Below are positions 1,037 through 28,042 of a stretch of 64,000 bases of DNA, in pieces. Made by a program: the position numbers and the translations under genes. Under the pieces are notes generated by a model. It made no database searches and was not told the origin of the DNA. It saw only the letters and a program-made list of their open reading frames with translations. This DNA is from Marinibacterium anthonyi (GTDB lineage: Bacteria; Pseudomonadota; Alphaproteobacteria; Rhodobacterales; Rhodobacteraceae), in assembly GCA_003217735.2 (NCBI GenBank), contig CP031589.1, positions 62,001 to 126,000 on the forward strand. Direction: 5' to 3'. The stretch's first letter is position 1. Each line of letters begins with the position of its first letter.

Positions 1037-2440
1037 CTATGAAAATACAACTTGAATATCCGTATATTCGGCGAGACCTTCTTCGCCAAATTCAACGCCT
1101 ATCCCAGATGCCTTGACGCCGCCAAAGGGCGCGTTCGGCTGGATCGCACCGTGTTTGTTGATCCAAACCGACCCGCATTCCATGCGTGTGGCCAAGTCGC
1201 GGCCCCGCTCGATATCGGAGGTCCAGATCGACCCGCCCAACCCGTTCGGGGAATCGTTGGCCGCGGCGATGGCTTCATCGACGTCGGAATATCGGATCAC
1301 CGGAAGCGCCGGACCGAACTGCTCCTCGACCACGAGCGGGTCGTCCTGCGACAGGTCCGCAATGATCGTCGGCGGGAAAAACAGCCCCTCGCCAGGCGTG
1401 CCACCCAGCAGGACGCGGCCTCTGGATTTGGCGGCTTCGGTCAGGCGGTTGACCTTGTCGAACTGCATCTGGTTCTGGATCGGGCCCAGAATGCTCTGCT
1501 CGCTCATCCCGTCACCAACGGGGATATTGCGCGCGAAATCCACCAGCGCATCGCAGACCGCGTCATAGATGGACGTGTGCACATACAGGCGTTTCATGGC
1601 AGCGCAGGTCTGGCCGTTGTTGATGAACGCGCCCCAGAACAGGCCTTCGGCAATCGCCTTCGGATCGGCGTCGGGCAAGACGATGCCCGCATCATTACCG
1701 CCCAGTTCCAGCGTCAGCCGCTTCATGGTCTCAGCGGCGGATTGCATGACCTTCTGGCCGGTGGCGCAGGAGCCGGTGAACACGATCTTGCGGATGCCGT
1801 CATGGGCGGACATGGCCGCTCCGAGATTCACGTCCTTGTCATCGCCGGTCACCACATTGACGACGCCTTTGGGCAGAACCTCTTGCATGATTTCGACCAG
1901 CCGGATGGTCGAAAGCGGGGTGTTGGGCGAGGGCTTGACCACCACCGTGTTGCCGGTCCGCAGGGCCGGGATGATGTGCCAGATGGCGATCAAGACCGGG
2001 AAGTTCCACGGCGTGATCGACCCCACGACACCCAGCGGTTTGCGATGCAGTTCCACCCGGCCTTCGTTGTTGTCCTGAAGCGTCTTGACCGGCAGGGACA
2101 AGCCGGCGGTATACCCCGCCCAGGCCTGCGCGCCACCCATTTCCCAACGCGATCCCAGACCGTTCAGCGGCTTGCCCTGTTCCTTGGTGATCAGGACCGC
2201 AAGCTCCTCGGCATTGTCGCCAATCGCGCCCGCCAGTTTTTCGCAATAGGCCTGAAGCTCGGCGTCGGGCAGCTTTGACCATGTTTCGAAAGCGGTCTGC
2301 GCGGTGGCGACCGCCTTGTCCAGATCGGCGAGCGTATTATTCGGCGCATAGCCGGCCACCTCGCCCGTCGAAGGGTTCAGGATGGCAAAGAAAGCGCCGT
2401 CGGCTTCGCTTGGAAGCTCGGATGCAGGTGCCGTGGTCAT
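1037..2440 (-). CDS. styD: Phenylacetaldehyde dehydrogenase (aldehyde dehydrogenase family), last step of the styrene upper pathway
   Basis: An NAD(P)-dependent aldehyde dehydrogenase that should oxidise phenylacetaldehyde to phenylacetate in the cytoplasm. Visible family signatures are the TPWNFPV cofactor-binding stretch, TLELGGND (general-base Glu), NNGQTCAA (catalytic Cys) and EEQFGPALPV. The ATG at 2440 follows AAAGGAAAAAG and gives 467 residues beginning where the family similarity begins. An in-frame ATG at 2548 overlaps the stop of the upstream ethD gene as ATGA and would add 36 residues of AT-richer, non-conserved sequence, so the start is uncertain. Last gene of styA-ompW-styB-styC-ethD-styD. 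The specific substrate is inferred from that context. Confidence 0.85.
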   Translation of the reverse strand: MTTAPASELPSEADGAFFAILNPSTGEVAGYAPNNTLADLDKAVATAQTAFETWSKLPDAELQAYCEKLAGAIGDNAEELAVLITKEQGKPLNGLGSRWEMGGAQAWAGYTAGLSLPVKTLQDNNEGRVELHRKPLGVVGSITPWNFPVLIAIWHIIPALRTGNTVVVKPSPNTPLSTIRLVEIMQEVLPKGVVNVVTGDDKDVNLGAAMSAHDGIRKIVFTGSCATGQKVMQSAAETMKRLTLELGGNDAGIVLPDADPKAIAEGLFWGAFINNGQTCAAMKRLYVHTSIYDAVCDALVDFARNIPVGDGMSEQSILGPIQNQMQFDKVNRLTEAAKSRGRVLLGGTPGEGLFFPPTIIADLSQDDPLVVEEQFGPALPVIRYSDVDEAIAAANDSPNGLGGSIWTSDIERGRDLATRMECGSVWINKHGAIQPNAPFGGVKASGIGVEFGEEGLAEYTDIQVVFS

Positions 2441-2544
2441 TGGTCTTTTTCCTTTAATCAGGTTCGAGACGCCCGAGAGGACGCGGTTCAGAGGCCCGAC
2501 GCTATTGACTGACTTCTTATTTACTACATCGGAGTTCAGATCGG

Positions 2545-2865
2545 TCATGCGGCGACCTTTTGGGTGAGATCCACGCGATGATGATAAATTCGGCAACCTC
2601 CGGGTGAGTAGTTGGCCACGTCGCTTGCGACTTCCGCACCGACTTCTGAAAAAAGCGCGCGCTCCATTATTTCCGCTGATGAAAAGTAGCCACGAAAAAT
2701 GCAGAAGGGAGCGTCTGACCTGTCACTCATGGGAGTTGGGTAGGCCACTTCGTACGAGAGTAGGCCTGGCAACTGCTCGGCAAGCGGCAAATGACGAGTG
2801 GTGTAATAGGTGCGAAACTGTTCAGGGTCCGCCGGGGCGGGGTACTCGACGCAAAGACAGTGCAT
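2545..2865 (-). CDS. EthD-family protein embedded in the styrene operon
   Basis: A 106-residue EthD-type alpha+beta-barrel protein. It begins MHCLCVEYPAPADPEQFRTY, followed by the typical TRHLPLAEQLPGL-SYEV segment seen when EthD proteins form dimers around small hydrophobic ligands. ATG at 2865 lies 33 bp after styC. The TGA overlaps an in-frame ATG of styD, so translation may be coupled. EthD proteins often sit beside oxygenases and may act as small-molecule isomerases, lyases or binding proteins. A role in handling a styrene intermediate (epoxide or aldehyde) is inference. The canonical Pseudomonas sty operon has no such gene between styC and styD. Confidence 0.75.
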   Translation of the reverse strand: MHCLCVEYPAPADPEQFRTYYTTRHLPLAEQLPGLLSYEVAYPTPMSDRSDAPFCIFRGYFSSAEIMERALFSEVGAEVASDVANYSPGGCRIYHHRVDLTQKVAA

Positions 2866-2898: not shown

Positions 2899-3444
2899 TC
2901 AGGCGACACCTCTCGATGCTGCGTGATTGGATTGGCCAGACTGACGCGCTTTGGCGACGATGATTGCCTGCCGACCAATTGCCACCAGCGCAATCATGTT
3001 CAGGACGCCGAACACGTACGCGGGCGCAAGTCCGATGAAACTGAAAATGTTAGAAGGACCAATCGGCGTGTCGCCGAAGGCCAGCGCGCGGTTCGGCGAA
3101 AAGTTCGAGCCCCAGTAAAAGACCACATTGGACCAGCCGTCGAGCATGACGATCCAGCCCCAGATCTTGCCCCATTTTTCAGAGAAGTTCAGGTGTGGGA
3201 TGACGAAGGCGACGGCGATGGTCATCAGGCCGTTCAGGACGGGGCCGGTATGCGTGCCCCGCCAACCGTGTTCGGTGCCGGGGAGCTGGAATGACACGAA
3301 AAAGCCGGGCACGATCTCAAATCCGCCGAGCAGGTACATCCAATATCCCAGGCCGCCGACCAGCGCGGCGAAAATCATCAAGACGCCGTTCCCTGCCATC
3401 AGGTCGCGCAACGAAAGTTTCCAGGGTTCGAGTTGTTCAGTCAT
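2899..3444 (-). CDS. styC: Styrene oxide isomerase, membrane protein
   Basis: 181-residue membrane protein matching StyC throughout, with four hydrophobic helices. It should isomerise styrene oxide to phenylacetaldehyde in the inner membrane. Landmarks are GFEIVPGFFVSFQLPG, then THTGPVLNGLM, LDGWSNVVFY, GSNFSPNRAL and IFSFIGLAPAYVFGVL. His65, Asn71, Asp102 and Tyr110 here line up, with a constant offset of 7, with residues I recall as the heme-ligating His58 and pocket residues Asn64, Asp95 and Tyr103 of Pseudomonas StyC. ATG at 3444 follows GGGAGGAAAGACC. It lies 59 bp downstream of styB. The N- and C-terminal tails are slightly longer than in Pseudomonas. Confidence 0.93.
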   Translation of the reverse strand: MTEQLEPWKLSLRDLMAGNGVLMIFAALVGGLGYWMYLLGGFEIVPGFFVSFQLPGTEHGWRGTHTGPVLNGLMTIAVAFVIPHLNFSEKWGKIWGWIVMLDGWSNVVFYWGSNFSPNRALAFGDTPIGPSNIFSFIGLAPAYVFGVLNMIALVAIGRQAIIVAKARQSGQSNHAASRGVA

Positions 3445-3503: not shown

Positions 3504-4007
3504 TTACCCGGTGGCGGATTCATTGAAACGCATCAGCCCCCGGAAGCCGCCAGCGTGATAGACGAGCGGCGCTACACCCTTGACTTCCGCGCCCATGACG
3601 CGGCCGAAGATCACAGCATGGGTGCCGGAATTCACGATTTCGGAGACTTCGCATTCGAGCGCGGTGGCGCCGTTGAGCACGGGCAAGCCTAGTGCCGCGC
3701 CCGCGCTCCACAGCGCGGGCTCAAAGCGGTCGTCGCCTTGAAGGCCGCTGCGACCGGCAAAGGTTTCGGCCGCGGATTGATGCGCGTCAGTGAGGATGTT
3801 CACGGCGAAGGTTCCGGAATCGCGGATCATCTTGAAAGTGCCGGTACTGCGGTTGGTACAGGCCAGTACGGTCGCAGGCTGGGCGCAGACCGAGCACACT
3901 GCGGTCGCTGTGATCCCGCGGCGCTCGCCGTTCAGGCGGGTGGTAACAATATTCACCCCTGCCGCAAGTTCGCCGAGGGCCGCGCGGAACGTTTCGACAT
4001 CTACCAT
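3504..4007 (-). CDS. styB: Styrene monooxygenase, flavin reductase subunit
   Basis: 167-residue NADH:flavin reductase of the FMN-binding split-barrel family that supplies reduced FAD to StyA. The frame starts with ETFRAALGELAAGVNIVTT, the usual N-terminal helix and first strand. It continues with GITATAVCSVCAQPATVLAC and the NRSTGTF-MIRDSGTFAVNIL block, and ends with the H-AGGFRGL segment. The size is that of StyB. ATG at 4007 follows GGAAGGGAGCAAGCC. In Pseudomonas styA and styB are adjacent, but here an OmpW-type gene separates them. The identity as StyB rather than a generic reductase rests on the operon. Confidence 0.9.
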   Translation of the reverse strand: MVDVETFRAALGELAAGVNIVTTRLNGERRGITATAVCSVCAQPATVLACTNRSTGTFKMIRDSGTFAVNILTDAHQSAAETFAGRSGLQGDDRFEPALWSAGAALGLPVLNGATALECEVSEIVNSGTHAVIFGRVMGAEVKGVAPLVYHAGGFRGLMRFNESATG

Positions 4008-4064: not shown

Positions 4065-4700
4065 TCAAAACCGCACCACGATGCCCGCGGTCGCGATCAG
4101 CGGATTTAGGGTGATGTCGGCCTCTGCGGGTGCTCCCCCAACGGTCCCGCGTGCCTTGGTTTCGAGCGGGATATATTTCAGGTCGATAAACCAGCCGGTC
4201 CTGTGTCCGAGCGGGCCCTCGACGCCCGCCTGCACGACCGGTGCGAAGGCGTTGTCGACGTCAAAGTCGCTGATTGCGCCGTCCTTGGTGTCGAAGATCA
4301 GCGTATAATTGATCCCGCCACCGACATAGGCCTCAAGGCCATTGCTGAATTTGGGGAAGTGATAGAGGCCGGTGAGCGTTGCCGGCCCATAAGTGACCTC
4401 CCCGAGGGCAAGGCCAGCGAGCGGACCGGTGCCGGTCAAGGCTGCGGTCGGTGGCACACCCACTGTGAGCTCCGCAGAAAACCGCTCCGAGAACCGATAC
4501 CCGATGCCGAATGTCGGCGTGACGTCGTCGCCTGTCGTGAAGCTCGCGCCCGGCACTGGAGCGCCTCCGAGCGAGATGTCCGCGCTCTCGTCCATCTGGA
4601 TATGGGACAACCCGAGCCGCAGCGACCAAGGGCCGCTCTCTTGCGCCTGGGCACAGGTTGCCGTTCCCGCAGCCAAGGCTGCCAAGCAAATCAGTTTCAT
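4065..4700 (-). CDS. OmpW-family outer-membrane protein of the styrene operon
   Basis: 211-residue predicted outer-membrane beta-barrel. An N-terminal signal peptide (hydrophobic to about residue 19, AQAQ cleavage region) is followed by alternating strands and a C-terminal aromatic residue (IVVRF), as expected for barrel assembly. The GIGYRFSERFSAELTVGVP and GLYHF-P-GLEAYVGGGINYT segments are typical of OmpW. OmpW proteins form narrow hydrophobic channels, and relatives such as AlkL aid hydrocarbon entry. It sits between styA and styB, so styrene uptake is the likely role by inference. It would fill the place of the Pseudomonas membrane protein StyE. Confidence 0.85.
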   Translation of the reverse strand: MKLICLAALAAGTATCAQAQESGPWSLRLGLSHIQMDESADISLGGAPVPGASFTTGDDVTPTFGIGYRFSERFSAELTVGVPPTAALTGTGPLAGLALGEVTYGPATLTGLYHFPKFSNGLEAYVGGGINYTLIFDTKDGAISDFDVDNAFAPVVQAGVEGPLGHRTGWFIDLKYIPLETKARGTVGGAPAEADITLNPLIATAGIVVRF

Positions 4701-4754: not shown

Positions 4755-6005
4755 CTATTCCGCGGCGAGCGCCTGTTGCGAGCGGGTCACCGCAGATCGT
4801 ACTCGCTCGGGGCTTGAGAAAATGTCCCACTGACGTTCGGGGTGATTGAAGCCTTCGGTGAAATCGTCGGTCAAGGACCGGCTTTGCGCCAAGCCACCGA
4901 TAAATTCCAATAGGGTAGGGTTGAGTGACGCGAGGTTTTCAAGCATGTAGTTCGTCCAACGCGTCGCGCTCATGACGCGGTCGTGTCTCCGGGCATCAAA
5001 TTTCTCGAGAAAGCGCTGGTCGAACACATCGTTTTCGACGATTTCCTCTCCAAGAATGACCGCTGCGTACGAGGCCATGTTGGCGCCTTGGCCCAACACC
5101 GGATCGACGACCGCATGGGTATCGCCTAGAGCGATCGCCAGCTTGCCGTTGGCCAGCTGCGTGTGGCTCTTCCGCACTGTTGGGGTGACGCCGCCTTGAA
5201 GGATATCCAGCGGCGAATTGGCCAGATCGAATTCTTCGGGATCGATGCGTTCGTAAAGCGTCGGGTAATGCGCTTTGATTTTTTCCAGCATGAGATCGAG
5301 GAACGCGCGGGGGTTTTCGTCGTATTTCGTCCGGGCCAGGATTTCCAGATCGCCGCCGATATGGTTTTCGAACACCAAAGCCTGGCACATGCCATTGAAC
5401 GACCAGGTCGGGATTTCGATCAGCTCACCCGCGCCGGGAGAGAAATACATGGTTACTGCGCGAGTTTCGGTCTCGGCGATGCCCTTGAAAAGGCCGACAC
5501 AGAGCATCCGTTGGGGGCGCTCGAATGGGGAATAGCGATCATCGCGTCCGAACATCTGTCCGATGGCACCCTTGCCGGTACAGACCACGGTCAGGTCATG
5601 TTGGTCGGAGATGGGTTCGATCTGATCGTGCTCGATCGGTCCGTAAATGACCTCCCCACCCAGATCCAGATAGTCCTGAAGCAATGCGGGTTGATAGATT
5701 CGGTAATCCACCGCACGGCTTGGTTGAACCAAGTCGCCATAGATGTGGATCGGCTCCGGTGTTCCGATGTAGTAGTAATGGCCGAAATAGCCGTATTCAC
5801 TCGACGGCCAGTGATTGCACCCAAGGGCATCTTCTCGCTCAACCGTCACGTGGTGGTGTGCCACCGTGTTCATCAAGCGCGAGCCTGCATAATCCGCAGG
5901 GGTACGGTCCGTGTATAGACGTGGCGTTATCCCATTTTGCAGCAGGTGAAGACCCAGTTGCAAGCCGGCAGTCCCCGCCCCGATGATGGCGATCTTCTTG
6001 GACAT
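4755..6005 (-). CDS. styA: Styrene monooxygenase, epoxidase subunit
   Basis: 416-residue FAD-dependent oxygenase closely resembling StyA along its whole length. The dinucleotide fold GAGTAG is at residues 9-14, followed by RLMNTVAHHHVTVEREDAL, EYGYFGHYYYIGTPEPI and SRAVDYRIYQP. The later FAD site GDTHAVVDPVLGQGANMASY is intact, as is the C-terminal NHPERQWDIFSSPERV block. It epoxidises styrene to styrene oxide using FADH2 from StyB and O2. ATG at 6005 follows TTTGGGAGGAATC. It is the first gene of the operon, divergent from a LysR regulator across a 102-bp gap. No frameshift or missing motif was seen. Confidence 0.95.
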   Translation of the reverse strand: MSKKIAIIGAGTAGLQLGLHLLQNGITPRLYTDRTPADYAGSRLMNTVAHHHVTVEREDALGCNHWPSSEYGYFGHYYYIGTPEPIHIYGDLVQPSRAVDYRIYQPALLQDYLDLGGEVIYGPIEHDQIEPISDQHDLTVVCTGKGAIGQMFGRDDRYSPFERPQRMLCVGLFKGIAETETRAVTMYFSPGAGELIEIPTWSFNGMCQALVFENHIGGDLEILARTKYDENPRAFLDLMLEKIKAHYPTLYERIDPEEFDLANSPLDILQGGVTPTVRKSHTQLANGKLAIALGDTHAVVDPVLGQGANMASYAAVILGEEIVENDVFDQRFLEKFDARRHDRVMSATRWTNYMLENLASLNPTLLEFIGGLAQSRSLTDDFTEGFNHPERQWDIFSSPERVRSAVTRSQQALAAE

Positions 6006-6107
6006 TGATTCCTCCCAAATTCTCCTCGAGACCGAAAATAAGTCGACGGGTCGGTCAAAGAAAGATAAATTATCGCATAGGACTTATCACAAATGGAATA
6101 AATCGAC
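6006..6107. promoter_or_regulatory. Divergent promoter region, styA operon / LysR regulator
   Basis: This 102-bp gap must hold the start sites of both the sty operon (minus) and the LysR gene (plus). It contains GATAA-A-TTATC at 6064-6074, an AT-rich palindrome of the size LysR proteins often bind, and next to it a GACCG-N2-CGGTC-like palindrome at 6045-6056. I could not assign -35 and -10 elements with confidence. LysR regulators normally bind such divergent gaps and control the neighbouring operon. Confidence 0.55.
6045..6056. promoter_or_regulatory. Candidate PaaR-type operator upstream of styA (one mismatch)
   Basis: GACGG-GT-CGGTC matches, with one mismatch, the GACCG-N2-CGGTC palindrome found at 7960-7971 and 19825-19836 upstream of paa operons. 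It sits about 40 bp before the styA start. If functional, it would place styrene oxidation under the same phenylacetyl-CoA-responsive repressor as the lower pathway. This is pattern matching only. Confidence 0.35.
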
Positions 6108-6986
6108 ATGAGCGATCGGCTCCAAGCCTACGAGATCTTTGCGGAACTTATGGATCGCAAGAGCTTTTCCGAGACTTCGCGTGCTCTGAATGTGCCGCAA
6201 GCCACGGTCAGCAAACAGATCGCATCGCTCGAAGCAGCATTGGGTGTGCAGCTCTTCATCCGATCGACCAGACGAATCAGCCCGACAAGTGAGGCAGAGG
6301 AGTTGATTCCCCATGTACGGCACATGCTCGATGCCCGGGCGGAAGTTGTGCGCGTCGCTCGCGGGGAGTTGCCGCGAATTTCTGGCAATATGCGATTGGC
6401 AGCGCCTCATTCCTACGGTCGGCGCGTACTACTTCCTCTTTTGGCGGAATTCATGGACCAGTACCCCGAACTCGTCGTCGATGTTGCGCTTCACCGCAGC
6501 CCCCCCGACCTTCTCGATGCGAAACTCGACCTCGCTATCAGCGGAACCGTCATGCCGGATGGGCCGTACCGCCAGAGGGTCCTGAGCACGCATCGCTGGA
6601 TCGTTGCGGGCGCGCCGTCCTATCTGGAGCAGCATGGTCGTCCGTCCATACCTCTTGATCTTGAGCAGCACTGGCTGGTGGTACCCCGGGTTTACCCATC
6701 GGACGTCCTCACTTTCGATTCTGAAGATGGCCGTCAATCGATCAGCGTTCGGTCACGGCTTCGCGTCAACGACGTTGATTTTGCCGAAGGTGCCGCGTGG
6801 CAGAACACCGGACTTGCCATCTTGCCAGACTGGATGGTCGGGCATAGGTCAGCCTTGGAGCCGGTCCTTTCGGACTATGTCCTTGCTCCGATCCCAATCC
6901 GGCTGGTTTTTCCAGATGCCAAGATCATTCCTCGGCGAGTGCGGGCTCTTATTGAATTCTTAGTGCTTCGCGCAAGCCGAATGTAG
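6108..6986 (+). CDS. LysR-family regulator divergent from the styrene operon
   Basis: 292-residue LysR-type regulator. The N-terminal winged helix-turn-helix is visible (FAELMDRKSFSETSRALN, then PQATVSKQIASLEAALGVQLF), followed by RSTRRISPT and a two-lobe effector-binding domain (RLAAPHSYGRRVLLPLLAEF, DLAISGTVMPDGPY). ATG at 6108. Transcribed away from styA, so it is the likely activator of the sty operon. Canonical Pseudomonas sty clusters are instead controlled by the sensor-kinase/regulator pair StyS-StyR, and no such pair is present here. The inducer is unknown. Confidence 0.88.
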   Translation: MSDRLQAYEIFAELMDRKSFSETSRALNVPQATVSKQIASLEAALGVQLFIRSTRRISPTSEAEELIPHVRHMLDARAEVVRVARGELPRISGNMRLAAPHSYGRRVLLPLLAEFMDQYPELVVDVALHRSPPDLLDAKLDLAISGTVMPDGPYRQRVLSTHRWIVAGAPSYLEQHGRPSIPLDLEQHWLVVPRVYPSDVLTFDSEDGRQSISVRSRLRVNDVDFAEGAAWQNTGLAILPDWMVGHRSALEPVLSDYVLAPIPIRLVFPDAKIIPRRVRALIEFLVLRASRM

Positions 6987-7013
6987 TGTCGAACCAGAGC
7001 TCATGTTTGCGAA

Positions 7014-7871
7014 ATGAATGACGTTATGAACCGTAGTAACCTACCGATCTTCGAAGTCTCGCCACGTGCGACAGATTTTATCGTGACTATCTATGGTGAC
7101 GTTGTTGAGCCGCGCGGCGGCATTCTCTGGATGGGTACCCTCATTGACTGTTGCGCCCAGCACGGCATCAGCGAGAGCCTTGTACGCACTGCTGTATCCA
7201 GGCTCGTGGGCCTGGGACGGTTGCAGGGCGAACGCATTGGGCGGAAGAGCTACTACAGGCTTTCCCGCGCCGCCCGTGACGAATTCCGCGATGCGGCGCG
7301 CATCTTGTTCGCACCACCGCCGGAGCCTTCAGGGTGGCTTCTTGCGCTTAGCTGCGACGGACGCGATCTCAATTGGCCACGAGGGTGGGCACGCTTGGCC
7401 CCGGGGGTCGGGCTGGGTCCTGACAGACCCGATCTGGCGAGGCCTTCCGGAGTTTTGTTTTGCGCACATGCGCTAGAGCGCTCCGGGTTGGAGGAAGTCG
7501 CGGGGCAAAACTGGGATCTCATGAAGGTCGCCGCACGCTATCAAGCATTTACGGAAAGATTTGCTCCTTTTGTCGATTTCGATTTCGGTGGTTTGAGTGA
7601 ACGCGAAGCGCTTGCCATAAGGCTTCGCCTGGTGGACGATTTTCGTCATGCAGCACTGGCCGATCCACGTTTGCCGCCGGAAGCGCTGCCGACGAAGTGG
7701 CCTGCAACGGCGGCGCGACATCTTTTTGGGGTGCTGTACCTCGCCTTGTCGCCGGCCTCTGACCGGTACATCGGACGACACTTCGCGAATTCCGAGGGTC
7801 TGTTGGATCAAGGCTCAGAGGCGACGCTGCGCCGAACCGAGACGCTGAAACGGTCTTTGCCCCAGCCTTGA
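7014..7871 (+). CDS. paaX: PaaX-family transcriptional repressor of phenylacetate degradation
   Basis: 285-residue PaaX-type regulator with the N-terminal winged-helix region (FIVTIYGDVVEPRGGILWMG, then SLVRTAVSRLVGLGRLQGER and GRKSYYRLS) and the longer C-terminal ligand domain of the family (RYQAFTERFAPF, DDFRHAALADPRLP). PaaX proteins repress paa promoters and are released by phenylacetyl-CoA. In Pseudomonas sp. Y2 PaaX also controls the styrene genes. It lies 27 bp after the LysR gene and upstream of the thiolase and paaABCDE operon. A TetR-type PaaR is encoded in the same island, so two repressors are present. The ribosome-binding site is weak. Confidence 0.9.
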   Translation: MNDVMNRSNLPIFEVSPRATDFIVTIYGDVVEPRGGILWMGTLIDCCAQHGISESLVRTAVSRLVGLGRLQGERIGRKSYYRLSRAARDEFRDAARILFAPPPEPSGWLLALSCDGRDLNWPRGWARLAPGVGLGPDRPDLARPSGVLFCAHALERSGLEEVAGQNWDLMKVAARYQAFTERFAPFVDFDFGGLSEREALAIRLRLVDDFRHAALADPRLPPEALPTKWPATAARHLFGVLYLALSPASDRYIGRHFANSEGLLDQGSEATLRRTETLKRSLPQP

Positions 7872-7927
7872 CCGCTGCGTCTGACTTGACCCCACAATAA
7901 AGCATCACACTTTTTTGAGATTTTGAC

Positions 7928-7971
7928 TTAACGAGTGATCCTTTTGGGTCTATATAAGTGACCGAACGGTC
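7928..7971 (+). promoter_or_regulatory. Candidate promoter and PaaR-type operator of the thiolase-paaABCDE operon
   Basis: TTAACG (7928-7933), a 17-bp spacer and TATATA (7951-7956) form a plausible sigma-70 promoter. A perfect interrupted palindrome GACCG-AA-CGGTC lies at 7960-7971, overlapping the expected transcription start, a good position for repression. The same palindrome occurs in the paaG/paaN divergent promoter. Assignment to PaaR is inferred from that shared occurrence and the nearby TetR-family gene. Confidence 0.5.
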
Positions 7972-8010
7972 GGTGAAACGATTCGCCGGCTGCGGGAGGA
8001 GGAAACATTG

Positions 8011-18492: not shown

Positions 18493-18513
18493 GGTGTCTC
18501 CTCCCTTCATGGG

Positions 18514-19836: not shown

Positions 19837-19866
19837 AATGATGCTGGTCAAGCTTTGGGAGGAGCC

Positions 19867-21513
19867 ATGACAGACCTGTTCACCCGCCATCGGCCGTTGC
19901 TGGAGAGTGCCCTGAAGGCACTGGAAACGCGCGAATTCTGGACCCCGTTTCCCGAGGTCCCGAGCGGGAAGATCTATGGCGAGACCGCGAAGGACGAGGG
20001 CGAATCGTCCTATGCCGCGCTGCTTGGCGCGGCCTTCGATCTGCCCGGCCACCCCGAGGAGGGGCGTGTCGGGGCCGAGGTTTCCCCTTGGGGCCCCGAG
20101 CTCGGCATCACCTATCCCGCCGCTGCGCCCGAGACGCTGATCGCCGCCTCCGACGCCGCCGCGCCGGGCCTTGCCGAGGCCACGGTCGAGGCGCGCACCG
20201 GGGCGCTGCTCGAGGCGCTGGTGCGGCTCAACCGGATGAGCTTCCTGCTCGGTCACGCGACGATGCACACCACCGGGCAGGCCTTTGCCATGGCGTTCCA
20301 GGCGGGCGGGCCGCACGCGCAGGATCGCGGGCTCGAGGCGCTGGCGATGGCCTATTCCGAGCTCACCCGCAGCGCCCGCGACGCGGTCTGGGAAAAACCG
20401 CAGGGCCGCCACGTACCGTTGGTGATCGAGAAGCACTGGGCGCTGGTGCCGCGCGGCATCGCGCTCACCGTAGCCTGCAACACCTTCCCGACGTGGAACG
20501 GCTACCCGGGGACCTTCGCGAGCCTCGCCACTGGCAACCCGGTGATCGTCAAGCCGCACCCGCGCGCCATCCTTCCGCTGGCGCTGACCGTGCGCGTCCT
20601 GCGCGAGGTCTTTGCCGAGGTCGGGCTGCCGCAGGACGCGGTGCTGCTGGCCGCCGACGCGCCGGGCGTCGAGATCACCAGGGAGCTGGCGACCCACGAG
20701 CGCGTGGCGCTGATCGACTACACCGGCTCCACCGCCTTTGCCGACTGGATCCGCGCCAATAGCCGTGCGCAGGCCTTCACGGAAGAGGCCGGGGTGAATT
20801 CCGTGACCATCACCGGCACCGACGATTTCGCCGGGATGTGCGCGAACCTAGCCTTCTCGCTGTCGCTCTACTCGGGGCAGATGTGCACCTCGCCGCAGAA
20901 CCTCTACATCCCGCGCGGCGGGATCGAGACCGACGAGGGCCACAAGAGTTTCGACGAGGTGGCCGTAGGGCTGACGGCAGCCATCGACGCGCTGCTCTCC
21001 GATCCGCACCGCGCCGCAGGCGTCTGCGGCACCATCGTGAACCCCGCAACGCTCGAGCGGATCAGCGCGGCGCGCGGCGCGGGCAGGGTGGTGCGTGACA
21101 GCGGCCAGACCGGCCATGGCCGGAGCGCGACGCCGCTTCTGGTCGCGGTCGAGCGCGAGGACGGCCCGCAGACCGACGAGTGCTTCGGCCCGGTCTCGTT
21201 CCTCGTGCCCAGCGATAGCGCCGAGGAGGCCATCGCCCGCGCCGCCGGCATCGCCCGCCGCAAGGGGGCGATCACCGCCGCGCTCTACGCCACCGACGAC
21301 GCGCTCGTCGCGCGTGCCGCCCGGGCCTTTGCGCAGGCCGGCGTGAATCTTTCGGTGAACCTCACCGGCAACATCTACGTGAACCAGTCGGCGGCGTTCT
21401 CCGACTTCCACGTCACCGGGGCGAACCCGGCGGGCAATGCCAGCCTGACCGATGCCGCCTTCGTCGCGCCTCGCTTCCGACGCGTGATGATCCGCTGGCC
21501 CAAGGCGGCCTGA
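19867..21513 (+). CDS. paaN: Phenylacetic acid degradation protein PaaN (aldehyde dehydrogenase superfamily)
   Basis: 548-residue PaaN-type protein of the aldehyde dehydrogenase superfamily. Characteristic blocks are FWTPFPEVPSGKIYGETAK, GHATMHTTGQAFAMAFQAGG, the nucleotide-binding region ACNTFPTWNGYPGTFASLATG and the Cys segment SLYSGQMCTSPQNLYIP. PaaN occurs in paa clusters and is usually regarded as a ring-opening or aldehyde-oxidising enzyme. Since paaZ is intact here, its exact role is unclear. ATG at 19867 follows TTTGGGAGGAGCC. It heads a plus-strand unit continuing into the ABC transporter. Confidence 0.92.
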   Translation: MTDLFTRHRPLLESALKALETREFWTPFPEVPSGKIYGETAKDEGESSYAALLGAAFDLPGHPEEGRVGAEVSPWGPELGITYPAAAPETLIAASDAAAPGLAEATVEARTGALLEALVRLNRMSFLLGHATMHTTGQAFAMAFQAGGPHAQDRGLEALAMAYSELTRSARDAVWEKPQGRHVPLVIEKHWALVPRGIALTVACNTFPTWNGYPGTFASLATGNPVIVKPHPRAILPLALTVRVLREVFAEVGLPQDAVLLAADAPGVEITRELATHERVALIDYTGSTAFADWIRANSRAQAFTEEAGVNSVTITGTDDFAGMCANLAFSLSLYSGQMCTSPQNLYIPRGGIETDEGHKSFDEVAVGLTAAIDALLSDPHRAAGVCGTIVNPATLERISAARGAGRVVRDSGQTGHGRSATPLLVAVEREDGPQTDECFGPVSFLVPSDSAEEAIARAAGIARRKGAITAALYATDDALVARAARAFAQAGVNLSVNLTGNIYVNQSAAFSDFHVTGANPAGNASLTDAAFVAPRFRRVMIRWPKAA

Positions 21514-21576: not shown

Positions 21577-22722
21577 ATGTCCAAGACCACCACCGCGCTT
21601 GCCACCTTCGCCGCGCTCGGCGTCCTCGCCGGCGCCGCGCAGGCCGAGATCCGTCTCGGCGTCAGCGTCTCGGCCACCGGTCCCGCGGCCTTTCTCGGGG
21701 ATCCCGAGGCCAAGACCATCGAGATGCTGGTCGAACAGTTGAATGAGAAAGGGGGGATCAATGGGGAGGAGATCGCCCTGACGCTCTACGACGATGGCGG
21801 CGACCCCAACAAGGCGCGCACCTTCGCCACCCGCCTCGTCGAGGATGACGAAGTCATCGCGATCATCGGCGGCTCAACCACCGGCACCACCATGTCGATC
21901 CTGTCCGTGGCCGAGGACGAGGGCATTCCCTTCATCTCGCTGGCCGGCGCGATCTCGATCGTCGACCCGGTGCGCGAATTCGTCTTCAAGACCCCGCACA
22001 CCGACCGCATGGCCTGCGAGAAGATCTTCACCGACATGCAGGAGCAGGGCATCACCAAGATCGGCATGATCTCGGGCACCGACGGCTTCGGCGCGTCGAT
22101 GCAGGCGCAGTGCAAGGAGGTCGCGGGCGAGTACGGCATCGAGATCCTCGCCGACGAGACCTACGGCCCGCAGGACGCCGACATGACGCCGCAGCTCACG
22201 CGCATCCGCAACACCGACGGCGTGCAGGCGGTGCTGAACCCGGGCTTTGGCCAGGGTCCGGCGATTGTCACCCGCAACGTCGCGCAGCTGGGCTTCGAGA
22301 TCCCGCTCTACCAGAGCCACGGGGTCGCCTCGGACGCCTTCATCGAGCTCGCCGGCGCCGAGGCCGCCGAGGGTCTGCGCCTGCCGGGCACCGCGCTGCT
22401 GATCGCCGACAAGCTGGCCGAGGACGACGCGCAATACGATGTCGTGACCTCCTACACCGAGGCCTACAAGGCCAAGTACGACCAGGACGTCTCGACCTTC
22501 GGCGGCTACGCCCATGACGCCTTCGCGCTGATCGTCGATGCCATCGGCCGCGCCGGTGACAGCGAGGATCCGCAGGCGATCCGCGATGCGCTGGAGGCGA
22601 CCGACGGCCTCGTCGGCACCACCGGCACCTACAGCTTCTCGCCCGAGGATCACCTCGGCCTCGACCTCAGCGCCTTCCGGATGCTTGAGATCAAGGACGG
22701 CGACTGGTTGGCCGTCGACTGA
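21577..22722 (+). CDS. Periplasmic substrate-binding protein of branched-chain-type ABC transporter (phenylacetate island)
   Basis: 381-residue periplasmic-binding protein of the branched-chain amino-acid/aromatic family (type I). The signal peptide (TALATFAALGVLAGAAQAE) is followed by IRLGVSVSATGPAAFLGDPE and the typical LVEQLNEKGGINGEEI-LTLYDDGGDP block. It delivers ligand to the permease encoded just downstream. The ligand is likely phenylacetate or a related aromatic acid by context; the fold alone does not tell. ATG at 21577 follows GGGAGGAGTTACTATC. Confidence 0.92.
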   Translation: MSKTTTALATFAALGVLAGAAQAEIRLGVSVSATGPAAFLGDPEAKTIEMLVEQLNEKGGINGEEIALTLYDDGGDPNKARTFATRLVEDDEVIAIIGGSTTGTTMSILSVAEDEGIPFISLAGAISIVDPVREFVFKTPHTDRMACEKIFTDMQEQGITKIGMISGTDGFGASMQAQCKEVAGEYGIEILADETYGPQDADMTPQLTRIRNTDGVQAVLNPGFGQGPAIVTRNVAQLGFEIPLYQSHGVASDAFIELAGAEAAEGLRLPGTALLIADKLAEDDAQYDVVTSYTEAYKAKYDQDVSTFGGYAHDAFALIVDAIGRAGDSEDPQAIRDALEATDGLVGTTGTYSFSPEDHLGLDLSAFRMLEIKDGDWLAVD

Positions 22723-22790
22723 CCCGCTTCGGCTCCGGGACCAAGCGCCCGGAGCCGCACCCCCATTTCCGCATCGCCTTGGGAGCCCCG

Positions 22791-23663
22791 ATGGACGCCC
22801 TGCTGCAATTCCTGTTCTCCGGTCTGACCGTGGGCGCCGTCTACGCGCTCGTGGCGCTGGGATTCACCATCATCTACAACGCCTCCGAAGTGGTGAACTT
22901 CGCCCAGGGCGAATTCGTCATGCTGGGCGGGATGATCACTGTCTTCGCCTTCGAGGCCGGACTGCCGCTGCCGCTGGCGGCGCTGCTCGCGATCCTCGTG
23001 ACCTCGGCCATCGGCGTGGCGCTCAACAAGCTGGCCATCGAGCCGGCGCGCGGCGCGCCCGTGGTCTCGCTCATCATCATCACCATCGGTGCCTCGATCG
23101 TGATCCGCGGCGCGACGCAGCTCGTCTTCGACAAGCAGCTGCACCGCTTCCCGTCATTCTCGGGCGATGATCCGATCCGGGTGCTGGGCGCCACCATCCT
23201 GCCGCAGAGCCTCTGGGTCATCGGCGGCGCGCTGGCGGTGTTCGTCGGGCTCTGGATCTTCTTCACCCGCACGCTGACCGGCAAGGCGGTGCTCGCCACC
23301 GCCAACAACCGCGTCGCGGCGCAGCTCGTCGGGATCAACACCGGCTGGGTGATGACGCTTTCGTTCGGCCTCTCGGCGGCCATCGGCGCCTTTGCGGGCG
23401 TGCTGGTCACGCCGATCACGCTGGTGGGCTACGACGTCGGCGTCGCGCTGGCGCTCAAGGGCTTCGCCGCCGCCATGCTGGGCGGCATGGGCAACCCCAA
23501 GGGCGCGCTGGTGGGCGGGCTGCTGCTCGGCTGCTTCGAGGCGCTGACCGCGGGCTATCTCAGCTCGCAGTACAAGGAGGCGGTGGCCTTCATCGTCATC
23601 CTCGCCGTGCTCTTCGTAATGCCGCAGGGCCTGTTCGGCCGCAAGTCGACGGAGCGCGTGTGA
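22791..23663 (+). CDS. ABC transporter permease, LivH type (phenylacetate island)
   Basis: 290-residue inner-membrane permease with about eight hydrophobic segments. It starts LQFLFSGLTVGAVYALVALG, followed by IIYNASEVVNFAQGEFVMLG, the hallmark LivH motif. The late FAAAMLGGMGNPKGALVGG segment is the ATPase-contact loop. ATG at 22791. The stop overlaps the livM-type start (TGATG). Confidence 0.92.
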   Translation: MDALLQFLFSGLTVGAVYALVALGFTIIYNASEVVNFAQGEFVMLGGMITVFAFEAGLPLPLAALLAILVTSAIGVALNKLAIEPARGAPVVSLIIITIGASIVIRGATQLVFDKQLHRFPSFSGDDPIRVLGATILPQSLWVIGGALAVFVGLWIFFTRTLTGKAVLATANNRVAAQLVGINTGWVMTLSFGLSAAIGAFAGVLVTPITLVGYDVGVALALKGFAAAMLGGMGNPKGALVGGLLLGCFEALTAGYLSSQYKEAVAFIVILAVLFVMPQGLFGRKSTERV

Positions 23664-24619
23664 TGACCGGTCGCAAGAAATGGATTTCGCTCGGCGTGCT
23701 GGCGCTGCTCATCGCGCTGCTGCCGCTGTTCTTCCCCTCGGGCTACTACTACCGCGTCGGTGCGCTGATCTTCGTCAACGCACTGTCGGTGGTCGGGCTG
23801 GTGATCCTGATCGGCTACGCCGGGCAGATCAGCCTCGGCCACGCGGGCTTTGCCGGGATCGGCGCCTATGCCTGCGCGCTGGCGCCCGAGCATCTCGGGC
23901 TGCATCCGGCGCTGGCGCTGGTGCTGGGGGCGGTGATCTCGGGCGTCATGGCCGCGCTGATCGGCAAGCCGATCCTGCGTCTCAAGGGCTACTACCTCGC
24001 CGTGGCGACGCTGGGCTTCGGCATCCTCGTGTCGATGGTGCTGACCAACGAGCGCGCGCTGACCGGCGGCCCGGACGGGATGAACGTCGCCGACCTCGGG
24101 CTGCGCGACCTGCTGCGCGACATGGGCTGGCGGCTCTCGGGCGGCGAGTTCTGGTACATGGTCTGCGGCGTCGTGCTGCTGGTCGGGGCCTGGCTTGCGC
24201 TGAACCTCTTCGACAGCCCCTCGGGCCGCGCCATGCGGGCGCTGCACGGCTCCGAGGTCGCCGCCGCGACCGTCGGCGTCGACGTGCCGCGCCAGAAGCT
24301 GCGCGCCTTCGTGATCTCGGCGGTCTACGCCTCGGTCGCGGGCTCGCTGCTGGCGCTGCAGAACGGCTACATCACGCCGGACGTGGCGGGCTTCATGCAC
24401 TCGGTCGAGATGGTCACCATGGCGGTGCTCGGCGGCGTGGGCTCGGTGCTCGGCGCCATCTTCGGCGCGGCGATCCTGACGCTGCTGCCGCAGGTGCTGA
24501 CGGTCTTTGCCGAGTACGAGCAGCTGGTGCTGGGCCTTGTCATGGTGCTGGTGATGATCTTCCTGCCGCAGGGGCTTCTGCCCTCGATCGCGCGGCGCCT
24601 GAAGGGGAGGGACGAATGA
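23663..24619 (+). CDS. ABC transporter permease, LivM type (phenylacetate island)
   Basis: 318-residue second permease. It begins with a basic N-terminus and hydrophobic helix (GVLALLIALLPLFFPSGYYY), then the LivM motif GYAGQISLGHAGFAGIGAYA, LKGYYLAVATLGFGI and the C-terminal AVLGGVGSVLGAIFGAAIL. ATG at 23663 overlaps the preceding stop, and its own stop overlaps the next ATG (ATGA). Confidence 0.92.
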   Translation: MTGRKKWISLGVLALLIALLPLFFPSGYYYRVGALIFVNALSVVGLVILIGYAGQISLGHAGFAGIGAYACALAPEHLGLHPALALVLGAVISGVMAALIGKPILRLKGYYLAVATLGFGILVSMVLTNERALTGGPDGMNVADLGLRDLLRDMGWRLSGGEFWYMVCGVVLLVGAWLALNLFDSPSGRAMRALHGSEVAAATVGVDVPRQKLRAFVISAVYASVAGSLLALQNGYITPDVAGFMHSVEMVTMAVLGGVGSVLGAIFGAAILTLLPQVLTVFAEYEQLVLGLVMVLVMIFLPQGLLPSIARRLKGRDE

Positions 24620-25401
24620 GCCTTCTGGATGTACAGGGCCTCGGCATCAGCTTCGGCGGGCTGAACGCGGTCGACGACGTGAGCTTCAAGGTCGCCCCCG
24701 GCGAGATCGTCTCGGTCATCGGTCCGAACGGCGCCGGCAAGACCACGCTCTTCAACATGATCTCGGGCGTCTACCAGCCCGGTCGCGGTTCGGTCACGCT
24801 GAACGGCACCGAGGTGACCGGCATCGCCCCCAACCGGCTGGCCGAGATGGGCCTGTCGCGCACCTTCCAGAACCTCCAGATCTTCCAGGAGATGACGGTG
24901 CTCGACAACGTCCTGGCGGGCTATCACCTCAGCGAGCGCGGCTCGGTCTGGGCCGACCTGCTGTCGCTGCCCGCTATGCGCCGCCGCGCCGCCGAGGCGC
25001 GGGCAGGGGCGCGCAAGCTGCTGGAACGGGTGCGGCTCGACAAGGCCGCCGAGCAGCTCGCGGGCAACCTCAGCTATGGCGCGCTGAAGCGGCTGGAAAT
25101 CGCCCGCGCGCTGGCGCTCAATCCGAAGATCCTGCTGCTCGACGAACCGGCGGCGGGCTGCAACGCCGTCGAGACCGAGGAGATCGACCACCTGATCGCC
25201 GAGCTCGCGGCCTCGGGCATCGCCATCCTGCTGGTCGAGCACGACATGAAGCTGGTGATGCGGATCTCGAACCACATCGTGGTGCTGGACCATGGCGAGA
25301 AGATCGCCGAGGGCGACCCGGCCACCGTGTCGCGCGACCCGGCGGTGATCGCCGCCTATCTCGGCACCGAAGAGGAGGAGCCTGCCCATGCTGACGGTTG
25401 A
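24616..25401 (+). CDS. ABC transporter ATPase, LivG type (phenylacetate island)
   Basis: 261-residue ATP-binding subunit. Walker A is GPNGAGKTTLFNMISG. The LivG-specific loop reads MGLSRTFQNLQIFQEMTVLDN, the signature region NLSYGALKRLEIARALAL and Walker B ILLLDEPAAGCN. The signature is LSYGALKR instead of the usual LSGGQ, which is normal for this subfamily. It overlaps livM by 4 bp and the livF-type gene by 14 bp. Confidence 0.93.
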   Translation: MSLLDVQGLGISFGGLNAVDDVSFKVAPGEIVSVIGPNGAGKTTLFNMISGVYQPGRGSVTLNGTEVTGIAPNRLAEMGLSRTFQNLQIFQEMTVLDNVLAGYHLSERGSVWADLLSLPAMRRRAAEARAGARKLLERVRLDKAAEQLAGNLSYGALKRLEIARALALNPKILLLDEPAAGCNAVETEEIDHLIAELAASGIAILLVEHDMKLVMRISNHIVVLDHGEKIAEGDPATVSRDPAVIAAYLGTEEEEPAHADG

Positions 25402-26089
25402 GGGGCTGCGCTCGCGCTACGGGCGCATCGAGGTGCTGCACGGGCTCGACCTCGAGGTCAGCTCTGGCGAGATCGTGACCGTGGTGGGCGCCAACGGCGC
25501 TGGCAAGACCACGCTTCTGAAGTGCCTCTCGGGCACCCAGCCGGTGAGCGACGGCACCATCGTCTTCCGCGGCGAGAGCTTCAACTCGGTGCCCGCCCAC
25601 AAGCGGCTGAAGCGGGGGCTGGCGCAGTCGCCCGAGGGGCGGCAGATCTTCACCAACCTCACGGTCGAGGAGAACCTGCGCCTTGGCGCCTTCCTCTTCA
25701 CCGACGAGCGCGTGGACCGCGACATGGCCGATGCCTTCGCCATGTTCCCGATCCTCAAGGAAAAGCGCAATCTCGCGGCGGGCGGGCTCTCGGGCGGGCA
25801 GCAGCAGATGCTGGCCATCGCCCGCGCGCTGATGGGCCGGCCGCATTGCCTGCTGCTCGACGAGCCCTCCATGGGTCTGGCGCCGCTTCTGGTGGCGCAG
25901 ATCTTCGACGTGGTGAAATCTCTCAAGGAGCGCGACGTGACTGTGCTGCTCGTCGAGCAGAACGCCTATGGTGCGCTCAAGATCGCCGACCGCGGCTACG
26001 TGATGGAAACCGGGCGGATCACCATGACCGGTGCCGCGCCCGACCTCATCGCCGATCCGCGCATCCGTGAAGCCTATCTGGGACTCTGA
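25388..26089 (+). CDS. ABC transporter ATPase, LivF type (phenylacetate island)
   Basis: 233-residue ATPase. Walker A is GANGAGKTTLLKCLSG, the signature AGGLSGGQQQMLAIARALMG and Walker B LLLDEPSMGLAPLLV. It pairs with the LivG-type subunit. ATG at 25388. Three bases separate its stop from the hydratase/dehydrogenase gene, so the transporter and the beta-oxidation enzyme are one transcript. Confidence 0.93.
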   Translation: MLTVEGLRSRYGRIEVLHGLDLEVSSGEIVTVVGANGAGKTTLLKCLSGTQPVSDGTIVFRGESFNSVPAHKRLKRGLAQSPEGRQIFTNLTVEENLRLGAFLFTDERVDRDMADAFAMFPILKEKRNLAAGGLSGGQQQMLAIARALMGRPHCLLLDEPSMGLAPLLVAQIFDVVKSLKERDVTVLLVEQNAYGALKIADRGYVMETGRITMTGAAPDLIADPRIREAYLGL

Positions 26090-26092
26090 ACC

Positions 26093-28042
26093 ATGACACT
26101 CCTGACTGTCCGCCGCGACGGCGAGATCGCCGTCGTCACCCTCGACAACCCGCCGGTGAACGCGATCTCGGAAGCCGTCCGAAAGGAGCTCTTCGAGATG
26201 GTGGGCCAGCTCGACGCCGACCCCGGGGTGCGGGCCGCGGTGCTGATCTGCGCCGGGCGGACGTTCCTTGCGGGGGCGGATGTGCGCGAGTTCGGCAAGC
26301 CGCCGGTCGAGCCGCACCTGCCCGACGTGGTGGACCGGATCGAGGGCGCCGAAAAGCCCTGGGTCGCGGCGATCCACGGCGCCGCGCTTGGCGGCGGCTT
26401 CGAGATCGCCATGGGCTGCCGCTTCCGCGTCGCGGTCGAGAGCGCCCGGGTAGGCCTGCCCGAAGTCACTCTGGGTGTCATCCCCGGCGCCTCGGGCACG
26501 GTGCGCACGCCGCGCCTCGCGGGCATCGAGACGGCGGTGGATCTGGTTACGAGCGGGCGCCCGACGCCCGCCGGCAAGGCGCTGAAGGCGGGGCTCATCG
26601 ACGCGGTGGTGAGCGATCTCGAGAGCGACGCGGTGGCCTTCGCCCGTGCGGCGCTTGATGCCGAGCTGCCCCAGCCGGTGTCGCGGCGCCCGCTCGCGCC
26701 GATGCCCGAGGATTTCTGGCAGGAGGCCCGCAAGCTTGCCGCCAAGCCCGGGCATCAGGCGCCGCTGCGCGCGCTCGACAGCCTGCGCTTCGCCACCGAA
26801 CATGGCTTCGCCGAGGCCATGGCGCATGAGCGCGAGACCTTCCTCGACCTGCGCGGCTCGGACGAGGCGGCGGCGCTGCGGCACATCTTCTTCGCCGAGC
26901 GCGCGGCGCCGAAACCCGCCGCGCTCAAGGGCATCGAGCCGCGCCCCGTCAGGACCGTCGGCGTGATCGGCGGCGGCACCATGGGCGCGGGAATCGCCGG
27001 GGCCTGCCGCGAGGCCGGGATGGAGATCATCCTCATCGAATGCGACGCCGAGGCGGTCGCGCGCGGGCTGGCAAATGTCGCCAAGATCTTCGACGGCGCC
27101 GTCAAGCGCGGCAAGCTCAGCGAAGAGGCGCGCGCCGGGCGCATGGCCGGCGTGCGCGGCAGCACCGACTACGCCGAGCTTGCAGACGCCGACCTCGTGA
27201 TCGAGGCCGTCTTCGAGGAGATCGGCGTCAAGCGCGCCGTCTTCGCCGAGCTGGGACGGGTATGCCGCGCGGATGCGGTGCTGGCGACCAACACCTCCTA
27301 TCTCGATCCGCGCGCCATCGCCGCAGGGCTGCCGGATCCGTCGCGCTTCATCGGGCTGCATTTCTTCAGCCCCGCCCACATCATGAAACTGCTCGAGATT
27401 GTGCCGACGCCCGACACCGCACCCGACGTGCTCGCCACCGGGTTCGCGCTCGGGCGGTCGCTGAACAAGATGCCGGTGCAGGCGGGCATCTGCGAGGGCT
27501 TCATCGGCAACCGCATCCTCAAGCGCTATCGCGCCGAGGCCGAGGGGCTGGTGACGCAGGGCGTGGCGATTGCCGAGATCGACGCAGCGATGCGCGGCTA
27601 CGGCTTCCGCATGGGCCCGTTCGAGGCACAGGATCTGGGCGGTCTCGACATCGCCTTCCTCCAGCGCGAGGGCGCCCGGGCCGAGGGGCAGGACGTGCCG
27701 GAAACGCACGGCGACATCCTCGTGCGCGCCGGTCGCAAGGGCCAGAAGACCGGCGGCGGCTGGTACGACTACGCCGAGGGCGACCGCACGCCGAAGCCGT
27801 CTGCCTCGGTAGCAGCGCTTCTCGCGGACCGCGTCTCCGGCACCGCCGCGCTCTCGGGCCCGGAGATCGCCGAACGCCTCGTCGGAGCGATGGCTGCGGA
27901 GGGCGACGCGATCCTTCACGAAGGCATTGCGCAGTCACCCCAGGACATCGACCTTGTCGAGGTCCACGGCTACGGCTTCCCCCGCTGGAAAGGCGGCCCG
28001 ATGTTCGCGGCCAGCTTGACGGCTTCCGTTCACAGAGGCTGA
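26093..28042 (+). CDS. Fused enoyl-CoA hydratase / 3-hydroxyacyl-CoA dehydrogenase (PaaF+PaaH role), C-terminus lost
   Basis: 649-residue two-domain protein. The N-terminal crotonase domain (CAGRTFLAGADVREFG, HGAALGGGFEIAMGC) spans roughly residues 1-190. The NAD domain begins near 285 with GVIGGGTMGAGIAG and carries LHFFSPAHIMKLLEIVPTPD and CEGFIGNRI. It should hydrate 2,3-dehydroadipyl-CoA and oxidise 3-hydroxyadipyl-CoA, steps otherwise missing from this island. The family normally continues for about 50 more residues. Here the homology stops after YGFPRWKGGPMF and a short unrelated tail ends at 28042, beside an IS30 relic. Activity may persist because both catalytic domains are essentially complete, but this is not certain. 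Confidence 0.85.
   Translation: MTLLTVRRDGEIAVVTLDNPPVNAISEAVRKELFEMVGQLDADPGVRAAVLICAGRTFLAGADVREFGKPPVEPHLPDVVDRIEGAEKPWVAAIHGAALGGGFEIAMGCRFRVAVESARVGLPEVTLGVIPGASGTVRTPRLAGIETAVDLVTSGRPTPAGKALKAGLIDAVVSDLESDAVAFARAALDAELPQPVSRRPLAPMPEDFWQEARKLAAKPGHQAPLRALDSLRFATEHGFAEAMAHERETFLDLRGSDEAAALRHIFFAERAAPKPAALKGIEPRPVRTVGVIGGGTMGAGIAGACREAGMEIILIECDAEAVARGLANVAKIFDGAVKRGKLSEEARAGRMAGVRGSTDYAELADADLVIEAVFEEIGVKRAVFAELGRVCRADAVLATNTSYLDPRAIAAGLPDPSRFIGLHFFSPAHIMKLLEIVPTPDTAPDVLATGFALGRSLNKMPVQAGICEGFIGNRILKRYRAEAEGLVTQGVAIAEIDAAMRGYGFRMGPFEAQDLGGLDIAFLQREGARAEGQDVPETHGDILVRAGRKGQKTGGGWYDYAEGDRTPKPSASVAALLADRVSGTAALSGPEIAERLVGAMAAEGDAILHEGIAQSPQDIDLVEVHGYGFPRWKGGPMFAASLTASVHRG

Follow-up and report, generated by a model that had tools for sequence, protein, structure and literature searches.

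The stretch of Marinibacterium anthonyi DNA analysed here (the window; 64,000 nucleotides, bases 62001-126000 of contig C5, CP031589.1) very probably carries an alphaproteobacterial-type operon for the side-chain oxidation of styrene (sty), together with a complete phenylacetate (paa) island, on a roseobacter plasmid that also has conjugation genes. At the level of genes the route from styrene to central metabolism is complete on one plasmid-like replicon, as an earlier reading of the sequence without database searches (the sequence-only reading) had proposed. All the genes that it named in the upper and lower pathways were found, and the corrections concern the names StyB, StyD, PaaX and PaaY. 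The operon lies on the minus strand about 2 kb from the phenylacetate island, in the six-gene order styA, ompW, flavin reductase, styC, ethD and aldehyde dehydrogenase, with a lysR gene divergent from styA. The genes for the OmpW, EthD and LysR proteins had not been listed before.

The gene content suggests the following scheme. Styrene would enter through an OmpW channel and be epoxidised by StyA, with reduced flavin adenine dinucleotide (FAD) probably coming from a dedicated flavin reductase that is not StyB, as its position in the operon indicates. The haem enzyme StyC, in which the key residues are present, would convert styrene oxide to phenylacetaldehyde, and an aldehyde dehydrogenase other than StyD would yield phenylacetate. 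PaaK, PaaABCDE, PaaG, PaaZ, a thiolase and a fused hydratase/dehydrogenase, the genes for which are all present, would complete the route, and the divergent LysR protein would activate the operon through a common 102-bp promoter. We infer that the host grows on styrene. Roseobacters could use styrene of plastic, plant or microbial origin as a carbon source.

StyA and StyC

The sequence data support the identification of StyA and StyC as true members of the styrene monooxygenase and styrene oxide isomerase families. The styA gene (4755-6005, minus strand) scores 704 bits against model NF045732 (cut-off 550), it matches PDB entry 3ihm (3.8e-170), and all six residues of the fingerprint N46-V48-H50-Y73-H76-S96 are present; the available text of PMC13101512 gives this fingerprint as that of styrene monooxygenases as distinct from indole monooxygenases. 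The styC gene (2899-3444, minus strand) likewise passes its equivalog cut-off (NF045734, 220 bits against 150). Its residues H65, N71, D102, N106 and Y110 correspond to H58, N64, D95, N99 and Y103 of StyC from Pseudomonas sp. VLB120, in which H58 is the haem ligand and replacement of these residues is described as impairing or abolishing activity (PMC11374702, as far as its text was available). For comparison, 43 other StyA loci were assembled, five from named plasmids and 38 from genome contigs. The StyA tree has 40 of the 44 rows, the window among them (L033, L037, L046 and L047, on cut contigs, were left out), and in it the window groups with Donghicola, Phaeobacter inhibens P88 and Tropicibacter in one clade with support of 100/100. 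The sequence-only reading had recognised both proteins and had named as its own refutation their grouping with unrelated monooxygenases or membrane proteins; the model scores, key residues, PDB match and the position of StyA among the StyA proteins of styrene loci reject such look-alikes. Between styA and the reductase gene lies an OmpW-family outer-membrane protein (4065-4700, minus strand; PF03922, 1.4e-24), the presumed entry route for styrene.

Certain observations weigh against the reading of the operon as an ordinary, working styrene pathway. The flavin reductase, aldehyde dehydrogenase, PaaX and PaaY all score under the curated cut-offs of their classical names. T20 of VLB120 StyC, which contacts the haem ligand, is an alanine here, as it is in 10 of 33 StyC copies (window included). 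Four of the five key residues are found in 32 of these 33 copies and D95 in 30, and the copy without all five is that of Tropicibacter naphthalenivorans, where styC (L016, 12569-12904) is a 111-codon open reading frame (ORF) with an internal in-frame deletion, either real or an assembly fault. Since the deletion removes the catalytic part, not all carriers have an intact operon.

Another account would be that StyA serves mainly for another aromatic alkene or for indole and that styrene is not what the host lives on. StyA-family enzymes also accept other alkenes and indole, and the element also carries genes of the benzoate and 4-hydroxyphenylacetate types, which suggests a general aromatics plasmid. 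The fingerprint, however, is that of a styrene and not an indole monooxygenase, styC shares the operon with styA, and next to these come an aldehyde dehydrogenase gene and the paa island, so that we regard this account as unlikely and a styrene pathway as the preferred reading.

StyC-like proteins that score under the cut-off also occur in other Alphaproteobacteria (L070-L085), sometimes several per genome and in some cases in genomes of 1.7 Mb.

The phenylacetate island

The lower pathway has the full gene set of the paa catabolon, all of it over the NCBIfam cut-offs except the fused hydratase/dehydrogenase, which is assigned from sub-cut-off matches and its place. On the plus strand, a 3-oxoadipyl-coenzyme A (CoA) thiolase gene (paaJ/pcaF; 8008-9216; TIGR02430, 690 bits, cut-off 597) is followed by paaA (9229-10227; TIGR02156, 531 bits, cut-off 280), paaB (10253-10540; TIGR02157, 141 bits, cut-off 85), paaC (10540-11394; TIGR02158, 291 bits, cut-off 133), paaD (11400-11921; TIGR02159, 185 bits, cut-off 108) and paaE (11989-13065; TIGR02160, 440 bits, cut-off 421). 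The paaZ gene (13825-15894, plus strand) reaches 977 bits with TIGR02278 (cut-off 563), scored on a longer ORF from 13759. The minus strand holds paaK (17185-18510; TIGR02155, 726 bits, cut-off 646), paaI (18514-18972; TIGR02286, 141 bits, cut-off 119) and paaG (18976-19770; TIGR02280, 403 bits, cut-off 345), and paaN (19855-21513; TIGR02288, 722 bits, cut-off 579) is again on the plus strand. The names that the sequence-only reading had given to these genes are thus upheld. No second paaA of the genome exceeds the cut-off, and such a gene is missing from the other two of the three genomes of the genus.

For three further genes the family is supported and the exact name is not. The PaaX-like regulator (7014-7871, plus strand; PF07848, PF08223) and the PaaY-like hexapeptide protein (15897-16514, plus strand; start set by the length of the Alloyangia gene) have the matching families and places, but score 198 bits with TIGR02277 (cut-off 265) and 287 bits with TIGR02287 (cut-off 320). 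The fused enoyl-CoA hydratase/3-hydroxyacyl-CoA dehydrogenase (26093-28042, plus strand), proposed for the roles of PaaF and PaaH, is present as a FadB/FadJ/PaaH-like gene, but falls under the cut-offs of all 25 models listed. A putative regulator of the TetR family (16498-17097, minus strand) is matched by weak TetR-family models, all under their cut-offs, and has the same position in loci L009 and L010. Five genes for an ABC transporter of the branched-chain-amino-acid type (21577-26089, plus strand), with matches under the equivalog cut-offs, may take up aromatic acids. The island also includes an additional PaaA/PaaC-like protein (13055-13807, plus strand), with 44 bits on TIGR02156, far under the cut-off of 280; this gene is annotated in Alloyangia too and not in P88.

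Replicon and host

The replicon is most readily understood as a plasmid that bears conjugation genes, in a host of the Roseobacteraceae type. Contig C5 measures 128,223 bp in a genome of 6.81 Mb, of which contig C1 accounts for 5.56 Mb, and its first 60 kb resemble roseobacter plasmids in DNA matches that cover RepC, plasmid housekeeping, relaxase, VirD4-type and VirB genes. The conjugation set on the contig consists of DNA matches to genes annotated as RepC, relaxase, VirD4-type, VirB4 and VirB10; the VirB4 match (C5, 56460-58703) scores 509 bits, under the model cut-off of 643. The first base of C5 is the ATG of a 426-codon ORF within the RepC match, which suggests a rotated circle; the two contig ends have no sequence in common. 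The host RpoB is 88.4% identical to that of Donghicola and 90.5% to that of Tropicibacter, against 70-72% for Sphingobium and Zavarzinia, and these values support placement in the Rhodobacteraceae/Roseobacteraceae. Both the plasmid location and the probable Rhodobacteraceae host had been proposed from the sequence alone, and both are supported. RpoB was used for this purpose in place of 16S typing, which gave no 16S match in any of the five genomes, and an Rfam search of the window matched nothing.

A flavin reductase in the place of StyB and an EthD-family protein

Two components of the operon lead us to a tentative proposal in two parts, which we hold with slightly less than even confidence. 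The first part is that these Alphaproteobacteria may possess a further kind of two-component styrene monooxygenase, StyB having once given way to an HpaC/RutF-like reductase of another lineage. The second is that a so far unrecognised EthD-fold component with the motif D-[VI]-x-x-[YF]-S-P-x-G may be common to the styrene operons of roseobacters, Zavarzinia, Marinobacter and relatives, where it would help at the step of the reactive aldehyde or epoxide.

The gene in the StyB place (3504-4007, minus strand; PF01613) had previously been called styB. It does encode a flavin reductase, but not StyB: it scores 70 bits with the StyB model (cut-off 200), less than its 113 bits with the RutF model and 109 bits with the HpaC model (both under cut-off), is 26-29% identical to four StyB proteins, and does not group with known StyB in the reductase tree. 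At the thresholds used, 8 of the 43 other StyA loci have this reductase, 31 have StyB, 4 have neither and none has both. The reductase takes the StyB place in all nine loci of one StyA clade, window included, whose members are roseobacters, Sphingobium, two Rhodospirillales metagenome-assembled genomes (MAGs) and one Rhizobiales MAG. One change suffices to explain the distribution of the two reductases over 38 of the 40 rows of the StyA tree (L043 and L044, with neither reductase, were left out). A midpoint-rooted tree was also built from the nine operon-type reductases, StyB from 29 of the 31 StyB loci and one HpaC-like protein from the window. In this tree a branch with support of 100/99 has the HpaC-like row and StyB on one side and the nine on the other; the position of the HpaC-like row between the two groups favours replacement over fast evolution of StyB. 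Two points tell against a replacement: the clade that defines it has support of only 88/87 in the StyA tree, and the HpaC-like row that separates the groups is a long branch of unsure position. We found no report of such a replacement in the literature searched.

It could also be that StyA does not have the operon reductase as its partner and takes its reduced FAD from elsewhere, for example from a chromosomal reductase or from the HpaC-like enzyme encoded at 56416-56889. With the StyB model (cut-off 200) the latter reaches 126 bits and the operon reductase 70, and the whole genome has seven matches to this model, none over the cut-off. On the other hand, the operon reductase gene stays near styA and styC in all nine loci of the clade, and the 56416 gene is near an HpaB-type gene, the product of which is its likely partner. 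We therefore consider an outside reductase quite improbable, and favour the operon reductase as the partner. The exchange of the reductase amounts to an experiment of nature on how far StyA can do without its usual partner, which is of use for biocatalysis.

The small EthD-family protein (2545-2865, minus strand) scores 62 bits with TIGR02118 (cut-off 30.5), and EthD-family proteins are found in 12 of the 43 other StyA loci. The motif given above is present in 9 of 10 aligned copies (10 of 13 copies were aligned; L009, L031 and L036 were left out), the exception being the Sphingobium copy, which lies 5 kb from styA. Whole genomes contain one to four EthD copies, as counted in eight genomes that were all picked because the locus has one. 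The AlphaFold model has an alpha/beta-barrel fold with a predicted local distance difference test (pLDDT) value of 90. Its best PDB match is 2ftr, of the EthD family, followed by olivetolic acid cyclase, 4-methylmuconolactone methylisomerase and hydroxynitrile lyase. As a guess, the protein may act like an isomerase or in the handling of an aldehyde. The available text of PMC9416434 mentions an EthD-family gene within an Exiguobacterium paa cluster, and no report on EthD in styrene operons was found in the literature searched. The protein is a testable candidate component of styrene operons.

The aldehyde dehydrogenase

The last gene of the operon (1037-2440, minus strand) occupies the phenylacetaldehyde dehydrogenase slot. 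An aldehyde dehydrogenase had been expected here and is present (PF00171, 1.9e-143; GQTC and ELGG occur in the translation), with the ATG at 2440 and not the TTG at 2596 as its likely start. It is not StyD by the models for that enzyme, however, with 381 bits against a cut-off of 850 in one model and 335 bits against 800 in the other. In a tree it groups with the aldehyde dehydrogenases of roseobacters, a Rhizobiales MAG, Marinobacterium, Marinobacter and others, apart from StyD, on long branches that leave the deep placement unsure. For the phenylacetaldehyde step in soil bacteria, StyD and FeaB types are distinguished in the available text of PMC7910268.

Regulation

The LysR-type regulator (6108-6986, plus strand; PF00126, PF03466) is likely to activate the operon across the 102-bp region between its own gene and styA (6006-6107), which is strongly conserved in four roseobacters and is a candidate LysR operator. 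In 20 of the 43 other loci a lysR gene is found upstream of styA in divergent orientation (about 1.7 kb away in L028, L029 and L048), and other regulators near styA include StyS in 6 loci and AraC in 4. On the StyA tree the LysR state changes once (L023 left out). The available text of PMC5874493 already proposes a LysR regulator for Sphingopyxis. The initial 30 kb of the window gave no match to StyS or StyR of VLB120, and in this respect the operon departs from the classical stySRABCD form.

The dyad ATTCC-N3-5-GGAAT is matched at no fewer than 8 of 10 positions in 19 of 21 such regions (shuffles: mean 5.8, maximum 11). In 8 of the 21 the match is 10 of 10, and there it lies 3-7 bases from the lysR start, the start being placed by alignment. 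The window itself detracts from this picture, as its dyad is degenerate: the best score is 8 of 10, which 36% of shuffles equal, so that an operator is only weakly indicated here. No strong palindromic LysR site was found in the window, and a degenerate copy can be seen by eye at the aligned place.

Relation to known systems

The linkage of a styrene operon to its lower pathway on a plasmid had been called unusual for such a host. It is rare, but it is not new. Of 394 sampled genomes of the family, 3 have any StyC match at E<=0.001 and a single one, that of the window, exceeds the cut-off; for the class, own genome included, the corresponding figures are 23 and 4 of 385 sampled genomes. Among 72,556 plasmid records StyC is matched in 6, a single one of them, P88, from a roseobacter; close neighbours of the window's genome may be lacking from this set. 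In 16 of the 43 other loci, including Pseudomonas pSTY, the fetched StyA flanks contain PaaA, PaaK or PaaZ genes. The same sty operon order is found in Phaeobacter inhibens P88 plasmid pP88_d, Donghicola tyrosinivorans and, with the styC deletion, Tropicibacter naphthalenivorans, and plasmid-carried styA, styC and paa were reported in 2018 for another roseobacter, Celeribacter baekdonensis LH4 (PMC5958252). Styrene-to-phenylacetate plasmids are therefore already known in roseobacters; in the reductase and aldehyde dehydrogenase slots the version here departs from the textbook pathway. M. anthonyi joins the few roseobacters with a complete and apparently transferable styrene route.

Plasmid pP88_d (NZ_CP010729) resembles the window in operon order, in the thiolase and paaABCDEZ genes that follow, and in having type IV secretion system genes nearby. 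StyA and StyC are 82% and 73% identical, respectively. Unlike the window, pP88_d has no paaX at the junction, its paa DNA is about 78-80% identical, and its plasmid backbone is another one; the operon stands beside opposite ends of the secretion genes in different backbones, so that a common insertion site was rejected. Plasmid pSTY of Pseudomonas sp. VLB120 also has styABC adjoining paa and is typed as conjugative, but it has StyS/StyR and a gene annotated StyB, with StyA 62% and StyC 55% identical. Two systems are compared by description only. The report on Celeribacter LH4 is silent on gene order and on whether one or several plasmids are involved (PMC5958252). Sphingopyxis fribergensis Kp5.2 is like the window in its proposed LysR regulator and an aldehyde dehydrogenase gene beside paa (PMC5874493, available text) and unlike it in that this dehydrogenase is of the FeaB type (PMC7910268, available text). 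The converse case is Alloyangia pacifica YSBP01 (NZ_CP022193), in which the paa island is 88-91% identical in DNA to window positions 7994-28009; the stretch there carries no sty genes, and an indolepyruvate ferredoxin oxidoreductase gene precedes paaX.

Joining of the sty and paa modules

The sty and paa modules meet between paaX and the thiolase gene (7872-8007) and have different histories. High DNA identity with the styrene-less Alloyangia island starts at 7994; paaX, before the junction, is only 56% identical in protein to that of Alloyangia. Third-position guanine-plus-cytosine content ranges from 0.58 to 0.78 for lysR, paaX and the six genes of the operon, and from 0.87 to 0.93 for seven of the nine paa-island genes measured, the other two being those for the thiolase (0.74) and TetR (0.75). 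The StyA and PaaZ groupings differ as well. A PaaZ tree was built from the 22 best-matching of the 184 other family genomes with a match, seven sty-linked rows with the window, and Alloyangia. In it the window, Alloyangia and one styrene-less member of the family group together (100/99), and P88 and Donghicola group elsewhere with another styrene-less member (100/99). The styrene-less labels of family rows rest on the 394-genome StyC sample, to which the 388-genome PaaZ sample is not shown to be identical. An approximately unbiased (AU) test rejects one clade for the three sty-linked roseobacter PaaZ proteins (window, P88 and Donghicola) at p = 0.0004, and the PaaZ tree thus does not support a single origin of the sty-linked paa islands. 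It counts against this result that the tested group was picked after the tree was seen.

The order of events may be read in two ways. The operon may have been freshly joined to a free-standing island, or sty and paa may have been linked once in a roseobacter ancestor, after which homologous recombination with an island like that of Alloyangia exchanged the paa half. The order lysR-(paaX)-thiolase-paaA is common to the window, P88 and Donghicola, which fits a single ancient linkage. In Tropicibacter, however, paaK and not the thiolase gene adjoins the operon, and adjacency to paa changes seven times on the 40-row StyA tree (cut contigs scored as lacking paa); neither point is decisive, and we regard the ancestral linkage as a serious possibility, at somewhat less than even odds. 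From the mosaic junction one can see how an upper pathway is brought next to a lower one of different ancestry.

Other catabolic genes in the window

Beside the paa island, positions 28750-45496 contain benzoate/catechol genes, including a BenE transporter, a CoA transferase and an ABC transporter. The same region has genes of the benzoate 1,2-dioxygenase type (BenA 798 bits, cut-off 781), an intradiol dioxygenase gene that scores under the model cut-offs and a gene of the mandelate racemase/muconate-lactonizing type. A GMC oxidoreductase and aldehyde dehydrogenase pair adjoins an AraC-type regulator gene at 47974-51305, and an HpaB-type oxygenase, under its cut-off, is accompanied by a flavin reductase at 56416-59128.

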